NCBI GenBank assembly: GCA_010093605.1
Contig: MU004194.1
Location: 322,908-386,907, forward strand
Source of the DNA: Lophium mytilinum
Taxonomy: Eukaryota > Ascomycota > Dothideomycetes > Mytilinidiales > Mytilinidiaceae
Direction: 5' to 3'
DNA length: 64,000 nucleotides
Notes under the pieces: generated by a model
The model's input: only the letters and a program-made list of their open reading frames with translations
Databases searched by the model: none
Told to the model about the DNA's origin: nothing
Part shown: piece by piece, positions 799-31,395 of the stretch
Position numbering within the stretch: the stretch's first letter is position 1
Layout: every line of letters begins with the position of its first letter
Position numbers and translations under genes: made by a program

Positions 799-1746
799 CT
801 ACGACGAAGTGTCTTCCTTACTTCCCCCATTAACCTCACCATTAATTAGTCTCCGATTCCACTCCTCCTCCATCGCCTCCACCCTCTCCCACCCATCCGT
901 ACCACCCTCTTGCCCCCTTCCACCACCCTTCCCCAACCCCTCTGTCCCCTTCTTTCCAAACTCCGCCGCCATCCCGGCCAGCCCTTGAGCCCTCTCTCTA
1001 TTCACCGCCACCTCTCCCTTCCTAAACAGCTCATCCCTCTCCCGCTTCCACACCACATACGGCCTCTTCTCCACATCCTCCACTACGTTCCCCAACGCAC
1101 TAGTCAGCGACCCAGACCCTGGCACCACAACTTCATACTCACAAAAACCCCAAATCCGGAGCTGTTTCTCAAACCCTAGATTCGGCGTAATCAGCGCACG
1201 AGACTCGCGCGCTAGGGCAAGGGCCTCGGAGTACGGGAGGCGGCAGGCCCGCATAAGGTAGGCGACGCACAGCGCGCCGGAGCGGGAGATGCCTTGGGTG
1301 CAGTGAACTAGGACGCCGGGCCGCCGCTTAGACGAGTCACTTGCTTGTTCACTACTCGTGGTTTCGGCTTCGGACGCCTCGAGAGCGGCTTGGATCCAGT
1401 CGCAGGCACTTTGGAGGTGGAAGAGGAGGTCGGCGAGGGGGTCATCGTCGATGTCTATGCAGCGGTGGATGATGCCCTGGTCGGGTTTGTAGTTAGGAGT
1501 GTCTTCGGGGCGGGTGATTGAGAGGACGTGGGTGATGTTGTGGGCTTTGAGGATGGGGAGGGAGCGGGCGGCGAAGCGGCTGGTAGTTTAAGTGTGCGTT
1601 ACTTCGAGAGAATATGCTCTTGTTTGTTCATTTTCATTTATTTTTGGCAGGAAGCGGGGAGGGGAATTGGAACGGAGATTGAGAGCTTACTCGGATACGA
1701 ACAGACCTGGAATGGTTTTGACTTCTGAGGCTTGGAGAGGTTCCAT
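799..1746 (-). CDS. Dual-specificity protein phosphatase
   Basis: Two exons (1746-1691 and 1579-799) joined over a 111-bp intron with a GTAAGC donor and a CTACCAG acceptor give 278 residues. The start MEPLQASEVKTIPGLF followed by VSDRFAARSLPILKAHNITH is the classic opening of small dual-specificity phosphatases. The signature HCTQGISRSG at about residues 111-120 supplies the catalytic Cys112 and Arg118, and the acidic DIDDDPLADL stretch (about 61-70) supplies the candidate general-acid Asp. Residues 88-105 are a Ser/Glu-rich insert just before the active site. The tail after about residue 160 is charged and Gly-rich and probably disordered. It should dephosphorylate Ser/Thr/Tyr residues; the substrate is unknown. 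Translation from the internal Met at 1254 alone would miss the catalytic loop, so the spliced model is clearly better. Confidence 0.8.
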
Positions 1747-3250: not shown

Positions 3251-3307
3251 CAAAAGTGTTAGATATGACTCCTAAATCTGAAACCAGTGTTGGTATAAGT
3301 GTCTTCA

Positions 3308-3385
3308 TCATCATTTGCAGTCACGTTTCAGAGCAAAGTTTTGACTCTTCTCAACGCTTGGCGTGAGTATAAGAACATTTCTCGG
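3308..3385 (+). promoter_or_regulatory. Promoter block shared by the Cys/His-rich array, copy 1
   Basis: The core TTGACTCTTCTCAACGCTTG followed by GCGTGAGTATAAGAAC (3341-3376) recurs in nearly the same form before the two downstream paralogs. It contains a TATA-like GTATAAGAAC about 170 bp before the ATG. Similarity continues some 40 bp past the TATA, into the presumed leader, and upstream into CATTTGCAGTCA. Confidence 0.6.
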
Positions 3386-3544
3386 ACAGCTCTTCATATC
3401 TTCCAAAAACCACTACAGAATATACTCAGCTTAAACATATCAACGAACTACTGTTCATATAGGCGACATTTCATATCCACCACATCTTTTTCCAAATCGA
3501 CATCTCCAATCCACATCATATCTTCCTCCGAAGCCTAGGCCATA

Positions 3545-4462
3545 ATGGGCACCCTAACCGCCATGCTACACTGCGAGCCACCACCCTTCAATATCTCCAT
3601 CGATTACTACGATTACGAGAACAATGTACCCGTGAAGAAAGGGGGAACCTTCAGTTTCGACCAATCTTCCATCCCTATCAAAGCGCGTTGCTCCCATCTC
3701 CTAGGCGATAGCACAACCTGTGCAGATGGTGGTTGCTATAATCTTGTGCCCAAAACACTCCCTATCGAATATGGAGACAGCGCGTTCGAATGCAAAAACA
3801 AGGTCTGCCGGGGCCACAGGAGCGTTTATAGGCGATGCTATACTACGTATGGATTGCTTTTGACCCCCCATAGTAGGAAATTGGAGTCGGACTGGTCGAA
3901 GATCAAGAGAAAATGCATAAGGCACAAGGTTGACGACTATGTGGATATTAAGGGGAAACCCGAGTTGAATAAGACAATAAGGAAGATCAGAGCGGCGAAA
4001 AGAAACACCAAGAAACCCTTCGGCATCCGCATCAACCAGCCCACTCCCGAAGAGCCCACCAAGGAGAGATTCGAGTGGGTCACTGTCAACCAAGCGCACC
4101 TGCCCCTCGATGCCCGCTGCGATCATCTTCAAAGCGTTCATGCAAACTGTACGGTTGGTAAATGTTATCGTTGGCAGCCCGGGACACCCGCGAGCGATTT
4201 CGGTGACTACGTCTACACGTGTGAGAATGAGGCTTGCTGGGGCCATACCACGAAACAAGAGCTCCGGTGCTATGGTGACGCTGGGGTCGTTCCGGTGAAG
4301 TCCCAAGAGGAAGTAGAGACAACGATGGGGACGCAGGCATGGACAACGCATAGTGTTGAGGGGTGGAAAGCCATCGAGGGGAGGATAGGTTTGAATGAGA
4401 AGATGGAGCAGATTGCTGAGTATAGTGACGCCCATTCCCTCGTGGAGCTTTACCGTGGGTAA
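3545..4462 (+). CDS. Cys/His-rich protein of unknown function, paralog 1 (duplicated domain)
   Basis: A 305-residue protein containing two copies of one Cys/His module: first ARCSHL...CADGGCYN...FECKNKVCRGH...RRCY (about residues 48-98), second ARCDHL...CTVGKCYR...YTCENEACWGH...LRCYG (about 192-245). They are separated by a Lys/Arg-rich linker. The spacing C-x-H, C-x4-C, C-x4-C-x-GH and C-Y suggests metal binding, but I do not recognise the family. No signal peptide or membrane segment is seen. It heads a tandem array with two shorter paralogs on the same strand, each preceded by the same promoter block. The C-terminus is odd: the helical tail seen in the paralogs lies in a different frame just downstream, so this copy may be frameshifted or have a mis-predicted 3' end. 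The function is unknown. Confidence 0.7.
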   Translation: MGTLTAMLHCEPPPFNISIDYYDYENNVPVKKGGTFSFDQSSIPIKARCSHLLGDSTTCADGGCYNLVPKTLPIEYGDSAFECKNKVCRGHRSVYRRCYTTYGLLLTPHSRKLESDWSKIKRKCIRHKVDDYVDIKGKPELNKTIRKIRAAKRNTKKPFGIRINQPTPEEPTKERFEWVTVNQAHLPLDARCDHLQSVHANCTVGKCYRWQPGTPASDFGDYVYTCENEACWGHTTKQELRCYGDAGVVPVKSQEEVETTMGTQAWTTHSVEGWKAIEGRIGLNEKMEQIAEYSDAHSLVELYRG

Positions 4463-4577
4463 TCCGGAGTATGAAAGGGAGTGGAAGGTGCGGAAGACGG
4501 TGGAACTTGGTTGGGATGATGAGAGGTGTTTTTATATGAGGATGAGGGAGTTGCAGCAGAGACTGAACAAGTTGTGA
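4463..4577 (+). other. Out-of-frame continuation resembling the paralogs' C-terminal helix
   Basis: Directly after the stop of paralog 1, another plus frame (stop at 4575-4577) encodes a charged helix containing YMRMRELQQRLNKL. The paralogs end with similar helices (RRMRQLTSMLKKR and DKRMEELQKPLEEW). An intron bridging the frames would have to be only 19-37 nt with weak signals, so a one-base indel is the simpler explanation. Confidence 0.4.
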
Positions 4578-5284
4578 GGGGGTAAGTGATAGGGAATCAC
4601 GATGGAATGGAGAGGGGAAGGGAGCAGTTGGACTAGAGCTGCGGCGGGTAAGGGCGTTGGGTAATCTGTTTAAGCTCTTCATTTAAAGGCGGGCTGGATT
4701 CACATGTTAGATTCTTGGTTCGAGTACAGCGTCTAGATTGTTGTGTTTCAATGGGTGTTCAAGAGAGTGTGCTTGTCTTTCATTGCATTTGGCAGCTAGA
4801 CCAGGTTATTGCTTCCTTCTACTTTGAAACCCAAGGTTAGCTCAGTGACTCGTGCTTTGATTCAAATGTCTTATCTAAGGTCTAGGTCTTTTGTGCATGG
4901 CTTCCGTAATGGCCGAGCTAGCCATGAGATCCTACCATCACTGTCATGGATTGCTCCGTTTTGAAAAGGCAAATGAAGGCTGTTAAAGATACAGAGCAGA
5001 CTTCTCCGCAATAGGAAGATGAAAGGGAGAGACGGCGCCTTTCAGAGACTTCAAAGTCGGCCTTGGATGTCTGTACGGGTGTGGAACTACCGAGGCGATC
5101 CGAGGACGGTGTTTGTGACTGCGGTGGATTCAAGCCTGATAGACTTGGCTCCTACGAACGATCTGAGAATGGCTCACTCCACTCAGAGGTCTTTCGGCGA
5201 TGTTTTTGAGTATCGATCGAGTCATCCACTGATACTGTCGACACTGTCTGCTCTGACCTGACGTATTTACATTCATTTAACTCA
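4578..5284. other. Intergenic, paralogs 1-2
   Basis: About 700 bp without a supported gene. The open frames here are under 81 codons and overlap each other on both strands. I see nothing beyond the 3' flank of paralog 1. Confidence 0.5.
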
Positions 5285-5414
5285 CGATCAGTGGCGCGAT
5301 ATGAAAGTCCCTCAATATGAGTGTCCTCACCACTTGCAGTCAAGGAATCGAACCCGACTCCGAGCATAGTCTTGACTCCTCTCTACCCTTGGCGTAGGTA
5401 TAAGAACTTTCTCC
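5285..5414 (+). promoter_or_regulatory. Promoter block shared by the Cys/His-rich array, copy 2
   Basis: About 130 bp alignable by eye with the block before paralog 3: GATATGAAA, then CTCCCTTATC-like, then CACCACT, then CTTGACTCCTCTCTACCCTTG and GTAGGTATAAGAAC. The TATA-like element (5399-5405) is about 190 bp before the chosen ATG. A longer upstream Met at 5321 lies inside this block, which is why it was not used as the start. Confidence 0.65.
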
Positions 5415-5593
5415 CCGAAGAATCTTTTCCTATCTTCAAACACCCACAATTGCAATCACCAATACAGAGTACATTTGCTTCTAAGCTTCTTGAACCCACT
5501 CCCAAACTAGATACCAACGCGCCTCGAGGAGATCTCATCCGAATAACATCATTACCTCCAACATCTCGCATTCATCTCCAACACCTACCAAGC

Positions 5594-6151
5594 ATGCGAA
5601 TGCTACGTTATCAGCCATCCGGAACCGTCGGATTCGTCGTCCGCGTTGGCGAGGGGACCCAAGACATCTACCTCTTCGAAGGCGACACTCATCACACTAC
5701 CTCCCTTCCCATCTGCTCGTGCCGCAGTCCGATGCGACAAGCTTACTGCGACGAGCCCGACGCCCACTACGGCATTCTGGACAACATCCGAACATGCCAT
5801 TACTCCCCTTTTGGTGTCTTTAAGTGCCCGAACAAGTGGTGTGCGGGGCATCCGTGGCCGCAGAACCCTTGTTACGGCGAGGCATGTGTCTTCTTTTGGC
5901 ACGACGGCGATGCTTGGGAAAAGACGGATGAAACGAGGGATAGTGTGCTTCAACAGGCCCCGGAAACAAGGAGAGATAAGTGGATGGAGGATATTGACGA
6001 GATGTGGTCCATTCTTAGGACGGAGGATTGGACGGTTGACGGCCACTACACCGTGAAATTGCATCGGAGAATGCGGCAGTTGACGAGCATGTTGAAGAAG
6101 AGGAAGGAGAATGAGGAGAGAGGGAGAGGAATGAATGATCAGGGTACCTGA
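5594..6151 (+). CDS. Cys/His-rich protein of unknown function, paralog 2
   Basis: A 185-residue protein with one Cys/His module: PICSC...AYCDEPDAHYG...TCHYSPFGVFKCPNKWCAGHPW...PCYGEACVFF, about residues 38-103. The sequence CAGHPWP-x3-CYG is shared with paralog 3 (CAGHPWPEKRCFG). After the module comes a charged, probably helical tail with RRMRQLTSMLKKRKE. The start was placed at ATG 5594 (MRMLRYQPSG) because the in-frame Met at 5321 would translate the conserved promoter and TATA block; Met 5600 is also possible. There is no signal peptide. Repeated Cys and His suggest zinc binding, which is inference. I do not recognise the family. Confidence 0.7.
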   Translation: MRMLRYQPSGTVGFVVRVGEGTQDIYLFEGDTHHTTSLPICSCRSPMRQAYCDEPDAHYGILDNIRTCHYSPFGVFKCPNKWCAGHPWPQNPCYGEACVFFWHDGDAWEKTDETRDSVLQQAPETRRDKWMEDIDEMWSILRTEDWTVDGHYTVKLHRRMRQLTSMLKKRKENEERGRGMNDQGT

Positions 6152-6256
6152 GGAAGGAGGAGAGGCGGGGTTAGGGTCGTACTCAATAGAGTCATATATG
6201 AAACCACGTCAATATGATCCACCCACCTAGGCGAATGAATCTCCCCTTCTATGACT

Positions 6257-6387
6257 GACGATGAGTAACGGGATATGAAACTCCCTTATCATGAGCTCCC
6301 ACCACTCTGAGCCACGATGTAGGAAGCCTTAGCTCCGTGCTCGTTCTGACTCCTCTCTACCCTTGCCGCAGGTATAAGAACGTTTCC
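6257..6387 (+). promoter_or_regulatory. Promoter block shared by the Cys/His-rich array, copy 3
   Basis: Contains GGATATGAAACTCCC, CACCACT, then CTGACTCCTCTCTACCCTTG and GCAGGTATAAGAACG. It is closest to copy 2. The TATA-like element is about 135 bp before the ATG of paralog 3. Conservation outside the coding sequence argues for a recent segmental duplication of gene plus promoter, or for selection on the promoter. Confidence 0.65.
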
Positions 6388-6506
6388 CTAAGCAAGTGCA
6401 TTCCATTTCCCAAACACACAACGGCAGAACAATAGCAGTCAGCCTCACTACTTCCCAAGAACCGAAACCAAAGCCCATCGACAACAAAACATCCAGCACA
6501 CCAACA

Positions 6507-7106
6507 ATGTCCCTCAAATTTCTCGTCCGCCACGGTGAAACTACCCGAGACATCATCCTCCGTCCCCACGACGAAATTTGGGGTGAGAGTATCACCAAGT
6601 GCAGCCACTTCGAAGAGGACGCCTACTTCGAACAGAAAACCTACACCAGCGATACAAAGTATTGCTGCGGCGATATCGAGCATTACGCCACCCTCTCAGA
6701 CATTCCGAGCAGTGATTTTTCCCCCCTAGGCCTCTTCGACTGTGGAAACTGTTATTGTGCGGGACACCCGTGGCCGGAAAAGCGGTGCTTTGGCAAAGAC
6801 TGCTTGTTCTATCAGCTAGACCCTGTTTGGAGTAGTTCAGGGGATACGAAGGCGAGAAATGTGGTATTGGACTGGTATCTTCACTCACAACAGCAGGAGT
6901 ACGAGTTGGATGAGATTGAGTGGGGGCCGGTGATGACAGCGAATTGGATTAAGGGCCAGGATAAGGTGATTGATAAGAGGATGGAGGAGCTGCAGAAGCC
7001 ACTAGAGGAGTGGAGGGAGGGAGAAAAGAAGGCGAGGGAGGAGAAGATGAAGAGGGAGAGCGTCGGAGAAGGAAGCATGGACAAGAAAAGAGGCTGGCTT
7101 TGGTAG
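6507..7106 (+). CDS. Cys/His-rich protein of unknown function, paralog 3
   Basis: A 199-residue protein starting MSLKFLVRHGETTRDI; the upstream in-frame Met at 6396 is in the presumed leader just after the TATA. One Cys/His module is visible: TKCSHFEEDAYF...YCCGDIEHY...FDCGNCYCAGHPW...RCFGKDCLFY, about residues 31-103. The C-terminal third is a long charged helix or coiled coil (DKRMEELQKPLEEWREGEKK) ending in GWLW. Similarity to paralog 2 covers the module, the tail and the promoter. RHGE at the N-terminus resembles the histidine-phosphatase motif, but nothing else of that family is present. The function is unknown. Confidence 0.7.
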   Translation: MSLKFLVRHGETTRDIILRPHDEIWGESITKCSHFEEDAYFEQKTYTSDTKYCCGDIEHYATLSDIPSSDFSPLGLFDCGNCYCAGHPWPEKRCFGKDCLFYQLDPVWSSSGDTKARNVVLDWYLHSQQQEYELDEIEWGPVMTANWIKGQDKVIDKRMEELQKPLEEWREGEKKAREEKMKRESVGEGSMDKKRGWLW

Positions 7107-7285: not shown

Positions 7286-8300
7286 TTACACCCACCCTGG
7301 CACACCTTTTGCATCCATAACCGACATTCCGAGTGGACTTGACAAGTCCAGCTGAATGCTGAACGTTCCCCCTTCACGATGAGTGCGGCGTACTACTCTG
7401 TCGAGATGTTCCTCATCCGTCCGCACGGTGAAGATTCCGTTACACCTCAAGCTATTCAAGGGCACCAGCAACTCCATCTGATCCTCCTCGTCAAACAATT
7501 CTACCAGAAGGTCTATGTGCAGCGTTCTCAGTTTTTCCATTCGTGCAATAGTACTGCACACCCGCTTCCATGTCTCCATCTCCTGGCGCTGCAGCTCTGG
7601 GCTGTAGGATCCGTATTGGGTGAGACGGAGGGAAAGCGCTCGAATATTACCGAACCGCTGCGGCGGAATCGACTGAGACAAGAGAAGAAGACTTGGGTCC
7701 TCTAGAATGAAAGTGTTGCTAGTATATAAGAGGTCGATAGTCTCGAGATAGCTGACTAGCGATCAGTAGAGCTAATAGGGCATAGGAGGTAGGAAGTTCA
7801 TACATTGCACGACAGGTTAACGGGAGAGAGAGAATAGTTCTGTTTGCCTTGACTTGATCTTTGTAGGTCTGCCAGCGCCGCCAGAATATCAAAGGCTCAT
7901 CTTCAAATCTTGCGGCTGTCGTGAACGTGAGCCGCGGCTTGTGGTCTTGTTCTTCCTTGGATGTTGTTTCCCATGTTGGCCTTATATACAGGCCTGGAGT
8001 GTTGGAGAGCGCCTCGCGGTAGATGAGCTCACGCAACTCTGCGGATAATCTTGAGAAGAGCGGAGAAGATGATTGATATAGATGACCAGTGCTTCCTTTG
8101 GCATTGGTGAGTAGGTCTTGTCTGACGGACTCGTCTGATGAGGGCAGCGAAAAGTGTTCTGATAATGCTCGTCTTCTTTGAGGTGGAGAAGCCCACTTTG
8201 CATGATATTCTTCACTCATATGAGTCCGCCAGTCGTGAAAACTTTGTTCATCTCGTTCCCCGCGGACTCCAGTCTGCTCTAATAGTGTAGCCAGTGTCAT
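7286..8300 (-). CDS. DUF7730/2EXR-type fungal protein
   Basis: Two exons (8300-7804 and 7751-7286) with a 52-bp intron (GTATGA donor, GTCAG acceptor) give 320 residues. The signature of this fungal family is clear: SPLFSRLSAELRELIYREAL near residues 78-97, LPLTCRAIYLETIDLLY across the splice, then NTFILEDPSLLLLSQSIPPQ and an Arg/Leu-rich IRALSLRL strand. These proteins resemble degenerate F-box proteins, are extremely numerous in filamentous ascomycetes, and have no established biochemical role. The splice restores the conserved TCR-x-IY-x-E-x-I-x-LLY-x3-NTF motif, which strongly supports the model. It is divergently transcribed from the EBP-like gene. Confidence 0.75.
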
Positions 8301-10696: not shown

Positions 10697-13600
10697 ATGC
10701 CGGCGGATTCCCCGGCGACCCGGCGCGCTGCGGCGACCCGCGCCCGCCAGCAAGACGTAACGAAACCCCTCGATTTCGGCAAGGCCATCGGAATCCACAA
10801 GGATGCAGACATTCCCAGCAAGATCAAGAAGTGGCAGACTGAGGGCGGCGGGATAATACCAATCGACGACCCGGCCGCTGGCGCAGACACAGTGGCCGAG
10901 GGGACGGAAGCGGTGGATGCGATTGCGATTGCGACGGCAAAGGGGAAGATGAAGGAGAAAGAGAAGGCGGCGGAATCACCGAAACCGAAGAAAGCAGCAG
11001 CTGCAGAGGCCGCGAGCCCGGCGCGGTCGCCGAAGAAGCTCGCGCATAACAAGCTGGATGAGGATGTGCGGATTGCGAGCGCGCCGAAGAAGAGGGTCGT
11101 GAGTGACTCGAACTGGCGGAAGAACAAGAGTCCGCCGAAGGACGGGGCCGCTACGAGGCCGGATGTGAAACTGCCTGTGGGATGGGTAAGGCCGGCCGTG
11201 AAACATGTCTCGCCCGCGAAGCCGAAGATCGAGGCAAGGCCGCCGCCGATTAAGATCACGCCGAGGGTCATGAGGACGAGGGCTACGGTGAGGAGGAAAT
11301 CTCGGCCTGGGAGTTCTGGGAATGAGGAGAGGCCTAAGACGAGTGGATCGGATAGTGTGATTGCGGAGAAGAGTGATGGATCGGCGACGTCGCCTGGGCT
11401 TGCTGACAAGAAAGAGGCTGTGAGGTTGCGAGGTGGGGATGGGAGAATCAGGTCTCCTAGAATGTACCTGTCTGCTGACGATGAGGCTCCAGTCAAGCGG
11501 AGGTCGAGTCGTCGAGTGGATAGATCGCCGACCGAAGAGACTGTCCACAATGATACACCTCCAGAGAAGTCGCCGGCGTTCGATAGCCCGTTAGCAAGCG
11601 GATCACGACGAAGACGACGTTCAGGTGGACATAAAAGAGAGCAGACGCTAAGAGAGGCCGAGGAGCCAACAGAAGATCTACCATCTACAGAACGTAGACG
11701 ACTACGGAAGAAGTCCTATCAAATAGACGTGCCGGACGTAGCACGACCACCAGAACCAGAAGTAGCACCAGAGACTCCCCCCAAGGTGTATGGAAATCGC
11801 GTCGAGGCATGGCTAACCACGACCCCTGATCCCTTTCTGGATTCCGAGACCAAGTCACGAAAAAGTTCAAGGAGCGCCGCTTCTGCGTCAGACGTGTCAC
11901 GGCCGAAGACTGAAGTCTCCTCGTTCACGGAGAGCTCGATCCCAAGGGAAGAGTCCGTCCTAGAGAAACCAGATCGAGCAAGTAGCAGCAGGAGACGAGC
12001 GCGGACTCGGACTATCACTGTGGATACTCGGGAGATGGATGACAGGACATCGTCCCTCCCTTCGATCGCCCCATCCGAAATCACAGATTCTGCCGCTGGC
12101 GGCGATGGTACTCCAAGCCCCTCCCTAAAACGAAGAGGCGCAAAGCGCAGCTCTCAATCCCCTACCAAGAACAGGTCCAAATCCCTATCGTCTCGAGATG
12201 CCCCGACGGTTATAGACACTGAAGATGAGGTTTCGATCGCTCCTTCATCATCCGTCGACGCTTCCACGTTCCAGCTGCCAGACCTTCCCATCAGATCAAG
12301 ACCGCAAAACACAGCACTCAGGCGCCACTTTCCCACGCGAGGAAAGCGCCTGTCAACCATTGCATCTGTTGAAACATTTGCCACGGAAATGCAAGCTGCA
12401 CCTCCCTCCGAAACCGAAGGCTCAGAAGCCACTGTCCAACCGACGCCCATCTCCGAGGACATGGACGAGTCGGAATCTCGAGATACAGTCGATCTAAACT
12501 CCCTCGCCTCGCTCAATCGACGTGGTACCTCGAGAAGAAAACTGGCCAGCCATGCCGACCTGATCTCTGTACTCTCTCTACCTAGGGGTGGCTCGAAGAG
12601 CATTGTCTCAGCTCGAAGCATCCGAACGAACCGGAGTCGCCTCGCGACTGCCACCATCGGCGACATCATGACCGAGTTGGCTTCAGATGAAGCCAAGTAT
12701 ATGCGCGAACTCCGCACTCTTGTCGACGGTGTGATACCTGTCCTTCTCGCCTGCGTTCTTTCCAAGTCGGACGCCGCGGTCGCAGCAGGCCTTTTCAGTA
12801 AGTCCGCGTTGAAGAATGATCCGAATGTTACAAAACCGATCGTCGACATGGGCGTCTCTCTGGAGCGACTGAAGAGTTTGCACAGACGAATCCCCAAGGA
12901 AGAGCCTGATGCGCTTCTTTCATGGGCCCAAAGCGCCCAGCGAATCTACTCCGACTACGTGAAGGCATGGCGACTTGGGTTCCAGGATGTGGTTGTCAAT
13001 CTAGCTCCCGCTGACGATAGCACGTCATCCGCATCGGGGTCTGGAAAGACACCAGAGGATGCAGTCTGGGACGAAGGCATGCCGCGTAACGAGGAAGGCT
13101 ATGTCGTCAACGGTGACGGCGAGAGGGTTGATGTTGCCTTCTTGTTGAAAAGACCTTTGGTTCGGTTGAAGTATCTGGCCAAGACCTTCAAGGGAATTAA
13201 CCATATCAAGCACTCGCTACAAGCAGAGAAGATGTCCATGGTGTTTCAGGAGCTCGTCAATGACGCTCGGACACGGTCGAACGTAGAGCGAGCGCGACTC
13301 GAAGATGAGGCCGCGTCAAACATTGACCCGACCAGAGCTCGCGATCCACGCAGCTTGGCGCCGTTGGCGGGTGTGAAAATTGATGCGATGCGATGTGTGA
13401 GGGCAAGAGATTACTTCGACATGCATCTACCACACTCTAGCGGCCAAGAGGTGGACTGTCGAGTCGAGCTACTGATTCGAGACGATGCCCCTGGGAGAGG
13501 CACCAGTGGGGATGTGCTTCTCTGCGAGGTCGATGAGTCAGGCCGGTCGCTATTCTTCCCTCCCATTCAACTTGGCCGTATGTCTGCTCGAAATGGAGAC

Positions 13601-16391
13601 CAGAAGGGCGAGATCATAGTGATGATGCGCGGTTTCAATACTGGTGGGCATGAGTGGAGCGAAGTCTTCTCGCTAACCTCCAATGACGAGCAAGCTGGAT
13701 TTGAATGGGTTCAGATGCTTGGGCTTCAGCCGGTTCCCCCTCAAATCACGGAAATTAAGAGGGAGCGAAGTTTCATCAGTAAAGCGCGCCGACCACCAAG
13801 CAGCCATGCCTCATCATCTCTCGTCTCGGCCGCCACCGGATCAACCATTCCTCTCAAGAGTAGAACCCCAAGTCCTCGCGAAGTTGAAGTGCCCTTTGGC
13901 GAGCGAGCTAATCCGACGTCGAAGAGATGGAGTTACAGTACTCCAGATAGGCCGGGTAGCAGGGCGTCTACGGAGGTTTCTCCTGTTACTCCACCAAGCA
14001 GCGAGCATTCAAAACTCAGAAAGCACGCCAAAGCAAGTCCAGTGTCTCCGCCTTCGCCCTTATCCCAACGTCAAGACGCCCAATCAGACCAAGATATACT
14101 CCCCTCCTCCAAACCTCAAACTCGGGACGGTGAAGTCAACCTGGATCGGACACCTAAAAGCCTCAACGATGCGATGATGATGGCTGGAACTGGCTCGCCG
14201 ATTTCTCTTAAGCGAACCAAGGCAAAGAGAATGTCTCGTCATGCTACTCAGTCGCCAAGCTCTCCAAAAGAAATGTTCATTGATCACGAACCTCCTGCGG
14301 CCGAGATCAAGCCATCGAGAAAACCGTCTCGTCGACAGCGAGCAGAGCCACCTTACACGCCAACATCATCTTCCCTGTCACAGAATAGCAAAGGTTTCAG
14401 CGTCTGGATGCCGTCTTCGGAACCAGAGTATTCGGATGAGTCCGATGAAGAAGATATGCATCCAGTCAAGCCTACTCTGGGAGCACCCGTGCGACCCCAA
14501 CCACATCGACGTGCATCTTCGGTGCCCTCCTTGGATTTGCCCACTATCCCCAAACTACGAAAGACTAGTCAACCTAGCACACCAGTCAAGGAGCCAGAAA
14601 TGCGTGGAGGATCCGATTCTCCTCCGGAGGAAGTGCATCAAAAGCGAGTTCCTTCGTCTGCACCGTCAAAATTGCAAAAGAGAGCCCCGGCGCCCATCAA
14701 GGAAGAGAATCTGGAGCCACAAGAAGACAAACCGCCACCAACTCCTCCACATCGGTCACCAAGCCCTGCAACTCCAGTAACATTGAAGGCTTCAAATACA
14801 CCACAATTCGCACCCACGCTGCCTGGTTTCAAGACTCGACGACGATCATCCTCGCCACTGAAGCACGAGTACGAGCCGTCTACCGCTACGGAGTCGTCTG
14901 GGGAGAGTGAAGGAGAGATTGTAGACAATGACTCCCTCACATCAGACTCGTCCGAGGATGAGCTTGAAGACGACATTCCGATGCCGATACTACCAAGGCC
15001 TGAACAGCCCAGCTTTCCCAAAGTTTCTCCACCAGCTTCCATCTACACTCTGCCCAACGGGACGATATCACCGTCTCAATCTGCATCTAACACACCGTAT
15101 CGAGCCGTACCACAAGGCTCAGGGAAGGCATCGAAGGCAATCGCATCCATAACGTCTTGGTCCAATGAAACAGGCAAGTGGGAAAGTCTGTATCCCGATG
15201 AATGCAGCATTGTTGTTACGCCAGGAAAAATCGAAGCGTACGAGCTCACATCGGCGCACTCTAAACCGCTTCTAGCTGATGGAGACGAGATCATCAACGC
15301 GAATAGAAAAGGGCCACTCATCTGCCAAGAAGTCACGCCGTTGGTTATACTCCGAAAAGGTACTGCTATCGACATCACCGTGAAGTCCCTTCCAACCTCC
15401 GATTCGCGTCTGAAGTCCGGAGAACAGATCATGTACAGGAGCCGCAACCCAGAAGAGTGTGATGCACTCTACAACATGATCAACATATCTCGCTGCAACA
15501 ATCCGACATGGCTCGCCCTCCAGCAAGCTAGAGGCTCCTATGGTCAAGGCTCTACCTGGGCTGCCGCAATGGACCGCCAAAACGCAGCTCGCTCAACAAC
15601 TGGCTCGCAAGGCGCCTGGTGGAACCTCAACGGCACGCTCGGTCGCCGCAGCTCCTACCGCGCTTCCAGCACCCGCGCCGCCTCCATTTCCGCAGTATCA
15701 GATTCCTCTGTCGGCACCATGGTTTCCGCCTTCTCGGCACTCAAGCGCTTCAGCGGGAGCAGTCGCTTGTTCAACGTCGCTAAATCTACCATCAGCTCCC
15801 GTGACAGCGGCGGCAGCACAGGTAGTCTCGATTCTGGCTCTGCGGGCTCGGGCTCGGGCACCAACACACCAAATCCAGACGGCACGCCCCGAGCCCCAGG
15901 CGCCCCTCAGGGCATTACGAATACCAAGATTCGCCTCTATGAGCGCGAGAGTCTCAACCAATGGCGCGATATGGGCTCTGCGCGCCTCACGATTATGCTG
16001 CCGGATCCCAACACACCGCGCTCGGAGACGCGGCAGGGGCAGGGTAGCCCTGGGCGTAGGCAGCATGGGAGCGAGAAACGAATTGTGATTGTGGGTAAAT
16101 CAATGGGCGAGACGCTGATGGACGTGACGCTCAGCGAGAGCTGCTTTGAGCGAGTCGCCAGAACGGGCATTGCGATCAGTGTGTGGGAGGATGTGATGGG
16201 ACCGAATGGCGTGGGGACGGTGGGCGCCGTGGGAGGCGTGTCCGGAGCTAGGGCGAGGGTGTATATGGTCCAGGTACGTGTGAAGCTGATTGTTATGTTC
16301 ATGGAAAACATACTAACGCGGTTGGTCGCAGATGAAAACAGAACGCGAGTGCGCGTATTCGTACTCGCTACTTGGCAAATTGAGGTACTGA
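10697..16391 (+). CDS. Very large Dbl-homology-like (RhoGEF) protein
   Basis: One 5,577-bp exon plus a short last exon (16332-16391) after a 58-bp intron (GTACGT...CGCAG) give about 1,878 residues. The first 640 residues are Ser/Arg/Lys/Pro-rich and disordered. A helical domain begins at about 655 (TIGDIMTELASDEAKYMREL) and runs to about 880, including LLKRPLVRLKYLAKTFKGI. This matches the layout of a Dbl-homology exchange-factor domain, followed by a PH-like segment (about 895-1010). A second PH-like segment lies near 1475-1600 (GKWESLYPDECSIVVTPGK), and a C-terminal beta-rich part ends CAYSYSLLGKLRY. Similar giant proteins in filamentous fungi are annotated as DH-domain proteins or, doubtfully, as an SRm160/300 splicing coactivator. 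Activation of a Rho-type GTPase in polarity or septation is inference. Without the splice the frame would run on through unrelated sequence to 16768. Confidence 0.65.
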
Positions 16392-17087
16392 GGACTTCAT
16401 CCAGGCCGGCTACCTACATCTCAACACACCAAGCTCTGTCTCGACAGCTGATAGATTCGCTATATACCCCACTCTACCCAGCAGCAATTTCTCGGAAGCC
16501 ACTCCCACTAGCGTTGCATATACAAACAGCGATACCCCCACGACTGGACCCACGGAAACGATTTTACCGACTTAGCGCCCTTTACTGTACAATCCACCAA
16601 CCACTACCAATCTTCGTTTCCGACATGTTCCCTTGTATCATGCATCCCATATGGGTTCCACTACTCCAGCGTCGGCGCTTCTTACACGGGCTTGTTGTTG
16701 TTTTTCTGTCGATTCCTTTTATCTGCTTCGCTGGTTTTGCTTGGCTTTTCACGGGTTTCTTACACTAACTGCGGATTTCGTGGCTATTATTAGAATAGGG
16801 AATATATGGTTGGGATGGTGGGGTTTGGTCACTTTGGTAGCGTAAGGTGTGCGGAATGGGCTTTTAAGGGGTGTTATGGGTGTATGATTGGTGTTTGCTT
16901 TATTGAGCACGCGAAAGGGATGGGGAGGGGGTGGAGGGTAGAGGGATGGTAAAGTGAGATATGGAGATAATATCTTAATGAAGCTGTTCAAATCAAGTAT
17001 TGTGTTGCTAAGCGCCTGTGAGGCTGTTGCAATTATTTTCTTCTCATCCCTAGATCTCAGAGTCTTCGATGTCGGAGTGATGTGCGG
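16392..17087. other. 3' flank of the large GEF-like gene
   Basis: Pyrimidine- and purine-rich intergenic DNA with no supported gene. Frames here are shadows, including the read-through of the GEF-like frame past its last intron. Confidence 0.4.
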
Positions 17088-29847: not shown

Positions 29848-31395
29848 ATGTCTTTCGGAAAGCTGTACAGCTACGCGGTAAGTGAGCACAGCACTGGTTG
29901 CCCCGCGATGACTCCACCTAACAAGCGCAGGAAAACCCGCGAACCACTGCCATCCTCGCCGTGGCCAAGGAGAATGGCCTCGACATAGAGTTTTTCGACA
30001 CCGTGCCTGCCAATGGTCTCTCTGCCGAGTATTTGAAACTCAACAAGCTGGGAAAGGTTCCCACTTTCGAGGGCGCTGATGGCTATGTTCTCTCTGAGTG
30101 CATCGCGATCGCTGTCTACCGTAAGTTTGCCTTTCTGCTACCGTATATCCGAACACAACCGTGCTGCCGGCCATTCGCTTTTATGATGAGACTTTTTATT
30201 CAGTTATCCCTGTCTGAAAAAAACATAACCTGTTGATATATTCACACTCTGAAACGCCTTCAAAACCCCCACCTTTTCAGCCTGTAGACTTGGGCAAGCA
30301 CATGCTGACCTGGACTAGTCACCTCGCAGAACGAGAAGACTACCCTTCTCGGCAAGACCAAGCAAGACTACGCTTCCATCCTGCGATGGATGTCTTACGC
30401 CAACAGCGAGGTCCTCGGCCCTATTGGTAACTGGTTCCGCCCCCTCGTTGGCCGTGACCCGTACAATAAGAAGAACATCGACGACGCACAGAAGGCCGCC
30501 ACCAAGGCAGTGGCCACTTTCGAGGAGCACCTCCATACCCACACATACCTTGTCGGCGAGCGTCTGACTCTGGCTGATCTCTTCGCTGTCGGCATCCTTG
30601 GCCGTGGCTTCCAGTACTTCTACGACAAGGCTTGGCGGGCGGCGAACCCCAACACTACTCGATGGTACGAGACCGTGTACAGCCAGCCCATCTTCACGAG
30701 CGTCGCCGGTGAGCTCAAGTTCATCGACGAGGCCATCAAGAACATTCCACCGAAGAAGGAGGCCGCACCCAAGAAGGAGCAGGCAAAGAAGGAGGCGCCA
30801 AAGCCCAAAGCTAAGGCTGCCGAGGAGGAGGATGACGAGCCACAGGAGGCACCCAAGGCCAAGCACCCGCTTGCGCTTCTGCCGCGCCCCACTTTCGACT
30901 TGGACGAGTGGAAGCGACAATACTCCAACCAGGAGACTCGTGAGGTTGCGCTGCCGTGGTTCTGGGCGAACGCCAACTTCGAGGAGTACTCGATCTGGAA
31001 GCTTGACTACAAGTACAACGACGAGCTGACCATGACCTTCATGACCTCCAACTTGATTAGTAAGTCGTACATCTACCTGTTCTTAGATAGAAGCTAACAA
31101 TTCTTTAGGTGGTTTCTTCACTCGTCTCGAGGCTAGCCGCAAGTTCATCTTCGGCGCGGCGTCCGTGTATGGCGTGACTAACGACTCTGTCGTCCAAGGC
31201 GCCTTTGTCATCCGCGGTAACGAGGCCCTGCCGGCCTTCGACGTCGCTCCCGACTACGAGAGCTACGAGTTCACCAAGCTTGACCCCACCAAGGCCGAGG
31301 ACAAGGAGTTTGTCGACGACCAGTGGTCGTGGGACAAGCCCATCAAGGTCGGTGACAAGACGTACGAGTGGGCTGACGGAAAGGTCTTCAAGTAG
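29848..31395 (+). CDS. Translation elongation factor eEF1B gamma subunit
   Basis: Four exons (29848-29877, 29931-30120, 30319-31059, 31109-31395) give 415 residues, the usual fungal length. It has an N-terminal GST-like domain (MSFGKLYSYA, GKVPTFEGADGYVLSECIAI, residues 1 to about 210), a Lys/Glu/Ala/Pro-rich linker (about 215-255), and the C-terminal EF1G domain (LPRPTFDLDEWKRQYSNQ through YEWADGKVFK). The subunit scaffolds the guanine-nucleotide exchange complex for eEF1A in the cytosol; the GST fold may also bind glutathione. Intron 2 is 198 bp, about four times the other two (53 and 49 bp), and sits early in the gene, where regulatory introns are common. Codon use is strongly C-ending, fitting high expression. 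Confidence 0.93.

Follow-up and report, generated by a model that had tools for sequence, protein, structure and literature searches.

The window analysed here, a 64,000-nucleotide stretch of the genome of Lophium mytilinum (contig C14, positions 322908-386907; the genome searched comprised 43.18 Mb in 24 contigs), carries a tandem array of three forward-strand genes encoding related Cys/His-rich proteins, each preceded by a block containing a common promoter core. It is rather likely that the proteins are intracellular, probably zinc-binding members of an undescribed family whose genes each have their own TATA promoter with a CpcA/Gcn4-like TGACTC site. The original observation was confirmed and proved somewhat stronger than first put. 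Its unusual aspect is the family-specific promoter core: across the genome, the bipartite element formed by TGACTCYTCT and TATAA is located almost exclusively at the promoters of the family.

Four genes and five modules

Gene 1 (3545..4462, forward strand) is an uninterrupted open reading frame (ORF) of 305 amino acids (aa), of uncertain C-terminus, and contains two modules on the same strand, 1a (about 3545-4021) and 1b (about 4022-4459). Gene 2 (5594..6151, forward strand, 185 aa) and gene 3 (6507..7106, forward strand, 199 aa) each encode a single module followed by a charged amphipathic C-terminal tail, giving four modules in the three genes of the array. That these genes are related paralogs, as the original prediction held, was borne out by BLASTP, by the repetition of the module within gene 1, and by a profile match. 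Identity is 31% between genes 2 and 3 (BLASTP, E 1e-23) and 28% between the halves of gene 1 (E 1e-18), for which reason the module is taken to have been duplicated in tandem within gene 1. Whole-genome searches with genes 1, 2, 3 and 4 and with module 1b returned a single further member, gene 4 (C14:751756-752229, 158 aa, one module), which lies outside the window about 420 kb from the array and shares 35% identity with module 1a and 25% with module 1b. Near gene 4 lie, among others, a GNAT-like ORF and an E1 ubiquitin-activating enzyme, and no second array was found there. Judged by motif and protein searches, the family in this genome appears to consist of four genes with five modules, and more distant members could be missed.

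The modules form two groups, 1a/1b/4 and those of genes 2/3. Gene 1 aligned with genes 3 and 2 through short local matches alone (best E 0.009 and 0.003, respectively), and the profiles of the two groups were matched by hhalign at 87.6% over 49 columns (single-pair E 3.5e-6).

Identity between genes 2 and 3 at codon positions 1, 2, and 3 was 0.53, 0.57, and 0.42; because third positions are the least conserved, the pair behaves as a coding frame. The corresponding values were 0.54, 0.53, and 0.48 for modules 1a and 1b, 0.55, 0.63, and 0.47 for module 1a and gene 4, and 0.42, 0.53, and 0.47 for module 1b and gene 4, where position 1 was lowest. Nonsynonymous and synonymous divergence (dN/dS, by NG86) was 0.68/1.75 for genes 2 and 3, 0.69/1.28 for modules 1a and 1b, 0.57/1.44 for 1a and gene 4, and 0.88/1.02 for 1b and gene 4. 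The description of these paralogs as fast-evolving fits the dN of 0.57-0.88 with dS above 1, and these values are no demonstration of positive selection, because dS is near saturation.

The charged C-terminal helix that had been ascribed to all three proteins is present in genes 2 and 3 (42% and 56% charged residues; moments 1.38 and 1.57) and is weak after module 1b (32%, 0.92). A +1-frame extension of gene 1 to position 4577, which by eye resembled those tails, was rejected since its scores fell within those of 500 shuffles (32 against the gene 2 tail, shuffle mean 25.7 and maximum 44; 33 against the gene 3 tail, mean 27.8 and maximum 51). The 26 candidate introns listed for gene 1 all lacked a CTRAY branch-point match.

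The Cys/His module and known families

The five modules were aligned over 62 ungapped columns (alignment A4), eight of which are invariant (C, Y, C-x-N-x2-C-x-G-H, C); five of these eight are Cys or His, and three further columns hold Cys or His in four or five of the five modules. Eight Cys/His positions thus recur across the modules, one or two of which show Cys and His exchanged: column 35 holds Cys in 1a, 1b, and gene 4 and His in genes 2 and 3. Column 10 is His, replaced in gene 2 by Ser within a C-S-C that can offer a nearby Cys, and column 30 is Cys, replaced in gene 2 by Asp with a Cys one residue before. The C-x-H element predicted for all three proteins therefore stands generally, with gene 2 as the exception, and the predicted C-(Y/F)-G was found in modules 1b, 2, and 3 and is missing from 1a (CYT); outside the array, gene 4 reads CDT. 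The ligand set is Cys6His2 in modules 1a, 1b, and gene 4, and all six Cys residues of gene 4 lie within its module. Conserved Cys/His ligands with Cys/His interchange, the features looked for in a zinc module, were present in all five modules, with small shifts in gene 2.

In all frames of the 43.2 Mb, C-x-N-x2-C-x-G-H occurs at eight places (three for the reversed control), namely the five modules and three places judged not to belong to the family. One of the latter (L021) lies in a 125-aa open frame antisense to a 346-aa ORF, is absent from the protein-search matches, and was judged a chance occurrence; another (L022) has an in-frame stop, and the third (L028) is not overlapped by any ORF of at least 40 aa.

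An aligned position at which paralogs differ by Cys and His is usual in metal sites and unexpected for disulfides, so that zinc is favoured, and from their sequences the modules probably bind zinc. Each module, of about 50-65 residues, would fold round a pair of structural zinc ions, with eight Cys/His residues as ligands in the order C-x-[H/C], C-x4/5-[C/H]-Y, C-x-N-x2-C-x-G-H, C, and the variable surface and helical tail may together serve as an adaptor for protein interaction. Secreted fungal proteins are typically small, Cys-rich, and encoded by fast-diverging tandem paralogs, and the Cys residues might accordingly be disulfide-bonded in secreted, effector-like proteins; this is very improbable, as an invariant His and the Cys/His swap are unfit for disulfides, the tails are charged, and a hydropathy analysis found neither a hydrophobic N-terminus nor a membrane span in any of the four proteins, in which the highest 19-residue Kyte-Doolittle mean was not above 0.83.

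The nearest known pattern is AN1, and the proteins could belong to AN1 or another known zinc-finger family and have diverged beyond recognition. AN1 is described as CX2CX9-12CX1-2CX4CX2HX5HXC (PMC3111467) and as likewise Cys6His2 with two zinc ions (PMC5035049). The Cys6His2 count of modules 1a, 1b, and gene 4 agrees with this, and the family's C-x4-C-x2-H-x5/6-C, in which an aromatic residue precedes the first Cys by two positions, is similar to the second half of AN1; hhalign superimposes AN1 and the family on just the C-x4-C-x2-H stretch. The first half is spaced differently, however, with C-x-H ... C-x4-C in the family and C-x2-C ... C-x1-2-C in AN1, and the family is without the H-x-C end, so that the part in common is CX4CX2HX5-6, with x6 or x7 to the last Cys in the family. 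Profile comparison with three AN1 domains of this genome gave hhalign values of 1.2% (E 0.043) and 0.1% (E 0.47), which do not amount to profile similarity. A search of the genome with PF01428 produced four matches (three over the cut-off) on contigs C3, C17, and C19, none of them in the family, and PF01428 gave no match to the five module cores at a limit of E 10. Membership in such a family is therefore considered improbable. Among the binuclear cross-braced treble clefs, which PMC4999995 lists as RING-like, PHD, FYVE, MYND, HIT, and AN1, a point of likeness is the presence of eight Cys/His within some 50-65 residues, a number sufficient for binding two zinc ions; the difference is that no match to them was obtained in Pfam at a limit of E 10, where HMMER filters drop most weak matches.

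The description of the genes as unknown was supported by profile and sequence searches of Pfam, NCBIfam, and the PDB. Pfam returned nothing for genes 1-4 at E up to 1, and for the five module cores, at a limit of E 10, gpUL132 alone (E 0.1, taken as chance). NCBIfam gave nothing significant (best 0.068, on the gene 3 tail only), and the PDB sequences likewise (best E 0.069 with profile A1 and 0.19 with profile A4, both to C1r, the A4 alignment resting on a short CAGHPS stretch). The best PHROGs match (E 0.014) was to a group of unknown function. As the comparisons with Pfam, NCBIfam, PHROGs, the PDB, and AN1 yielded no significant match, the module is filed in no named family; in fungi, arrays of paralogs that lack a Pfam entry are common. 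Among the papers listed in literature searches for such a family or motif, none was judged to concern the present one, and several dealt with A20/AN1 stress proteins or with comparable families of plants. Scans of viral contigs (alignment A2 and genes 1, 4, and 2), prokaryote genomes (gene 3), plasmids (genes 1 and 2), and phages (gene 1) found no relative, single-protein scans of this kind catching close relatives only; a horizontal origin thus found no support in these collections, none of which covers fungi.

The promoter core and its regulation

A block on the forward strand precedes each gene of the array: 3305..3413 for gene 1 (TGACTC at 3342, TATAA at 3368), 5280..5415 for gene 2 (5373 and 5399), and 6254..6388 for gene 3 (6347 and 6373). 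Local alignment of the upstream regions scored 72 for genes 1 and 2, 43 for genes 1 and 3, and 93 for genes 2 and 3, and the highest of 500 dinucleotide shuffles per pair reached 34, 26, and 30. This upholds the duplicated promoter block of the original prediction; its noncoding alignment of about 130 bp between genes 2 and 3 was also right (5280-5415 against 6254-6388, with gaps), and conservation of the core alongside strong protein divergence was supported. Within the 36-bp core, which begins with TGACTC and ends 10 bp from where TATAA starts, ungapped identity was 30/36 (genes 1 and 2), 33/36 (2 and 3), and 28/36 (1 and 3), and over the next 20 bp it was 7/20, 8/20, and 7/20. The boundary is sharp in the ungapped count only, because the gapped alignment runs on: genes 1 and 2 stay similar for some 45 bp downstream, and genes 2 and 3 for some 95 bp upstream. 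A 35-base pattern allowing up to three mismatches occurred at three places in the genome, all of them promoters of the array (control, 0), the gene 1 site having no mismatches, and in the 64-kb window the 10-mer TGACTCYTCT was found at the three promoters only. The distance from TGACTC to TATAA is 26 bp in genes 1-3 and 22 bp in gene 4, and that from TATAA to ATG is 177, 195, 134, and 206 bp in genes 1-4.

Upstream of gene 4 little is kept besides TGACTCTTCT and TATAA (element at L007:1249-1277); relative to gene 1, 20 of 31 aligned bases match, including 4 of the 12 between the two elements. In the 43.2 Mb, five places fit the pattern TGACTCYTCTN{10,20}TATAARA (reversed control, 1), and the version with plain TATAA is found at the same five (control, 2); four of these are the promoters of the four family genes. 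The fifth (contig C16, L014) lies inside an opposite-strand 278-aa ORF, which we take to be homoaconitase-like, and was considered a chance occurrence. In 20,000 dinucleotide shuffles of the 400 bp upstream of gene 4 the bipartite pattern never appeared, and the 10-mer alone appeared in 101.

Each gene would accordingly have its own TATA promoter, in which TGACTCYTCT begins 22-26 bp upstream of TATAA and TGACTC may act as a CpcA/Gcn4-like, bZIP-like half-site, the four genes probably being induced together through these elements. In Aspergillus nidulans, TGACTC is named as the consensus for CpcA (PMC10817288); the full element is given as TGA(C/G)TCA (PMC3199737), and in yeast TGAC half-sites are reported to be bound by Gcn4-like bZIP and VHR proteins (PMC3334620). 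The TGACTC core in all four family promoters is shared with CpcA/Gcn4 targets, and the family differs in that its site, TGACTC(C/T)TCT, stands just upstream of TATA. To judge from the promoters, co-expression of the four genes is somewhat more likely than not, and CpcA itself is a doubtful candidate for the regulator; with the near-fixed spacing to TATA, an unknown factor could equally be responsible.

Several observations weigh against zinc-binding paralogs under a shared promoter. Single-protein scores between the two groups are weak (z 4.0-6.9), and in three of the six pairs the score was reached by 1 of 500 shuffles; gene 2 has Ser at the second and Asp at the third ligand column, with Cys shifted by one or two residues; and no zinc family matched the modules significantly (Pfam, and hhalign against AN1). 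None of the four promoters has the full palindrome TGASTCA at the site, which is TGACTCC or TGACTCT instead, the whole upstream region of gene 4 scores inside the shuffles against genes 1, 2, and 3 (28, 20, and 18), and the bipartite pattern was composed after the gene 4 upstream region had been seen, so that the count of four in five is not blind. Gapped similarity, moreover, passes the core (downstream to 3413 in genes 1 and 2, upstream to 5280 in genes 2 and 3), as in a duplication relic, and promoter likeness follows location, not protein kinship.

The last two points would suit an origin of the promoter likeness as a mere relic of tandem duplication, or of later gene conversion in the array, without shared regulation, as would the adjacency of genes 1-3 on one strand and the gapped upstream alignment of about 135 bp for genes 2 and 3 and some 45 bp past TATA for genes 1 and 2. 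Such an origin is nevertheless judged unlikely: ungapped identity peaks in the 36-bp core and is near chance over the next 20 bp, despite NG86 dS of 1.0-1.7, and distant gene 4 retains both core elements, which strengthens the co-regulation reading. The promoters group as (1,2,3) versus 4 and the proteins as (1,4) versus (2,3).

Surroundings of the array and implications

Upstream of the array, the window contains a minisatellite (2049-2278) of about 11.6 copies of the 18-bp unit CTCATCCTTCCCGTATCT, and a low-GC stretch (2331-2568) that adjoins the array, has two diverged partial copies elsewhere (71% on contig C13, 79% on C24), and is perhaps a repeat remnant. A dual-specificity phosphatase exon lies at 799-1587 (reverse strand; DSPc, E 1.4e-20), and the gene downstream of the array (7286-8300, reverse strand) is matched weakly by DUF7730 in two pieces, neither of which reaches the cut-off. 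A Rho GEF-like uninterrupted ORF of 2023 aa with DH_2, PH_23, and PH_24 domains is found at 10697-16768 (forward strand). The C/D box snoRNA snoR38 (RF00213, 50.6 bits; 30175-30259, forward strand) stands directly before an elongation factor 1-gamma exon and, from that position, is perhaps intronic. The best PDB match of a mitochondrial uS9m ORF was 6yw5 (E 2.7e-70), presumably a Neurospora crassa structure.

Tentatively, and with appreciable doubt, the genes may represent an undescribed family of binuclear zinc modules, intracellular adaptors that diversify fast while a private promoter switch is kept at about 30% protein identity. If so, unnamed fungal proteins would gain a zinc-module family whose members can be found by C-x-N-x2-C-x-G-H. 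The array is also a compact case for studying how regulation outlives protein sequence, the promoter core being kept despite near-saturated synonymous sites, and how the comparison of paralogs points to regulatory elements without experiment.

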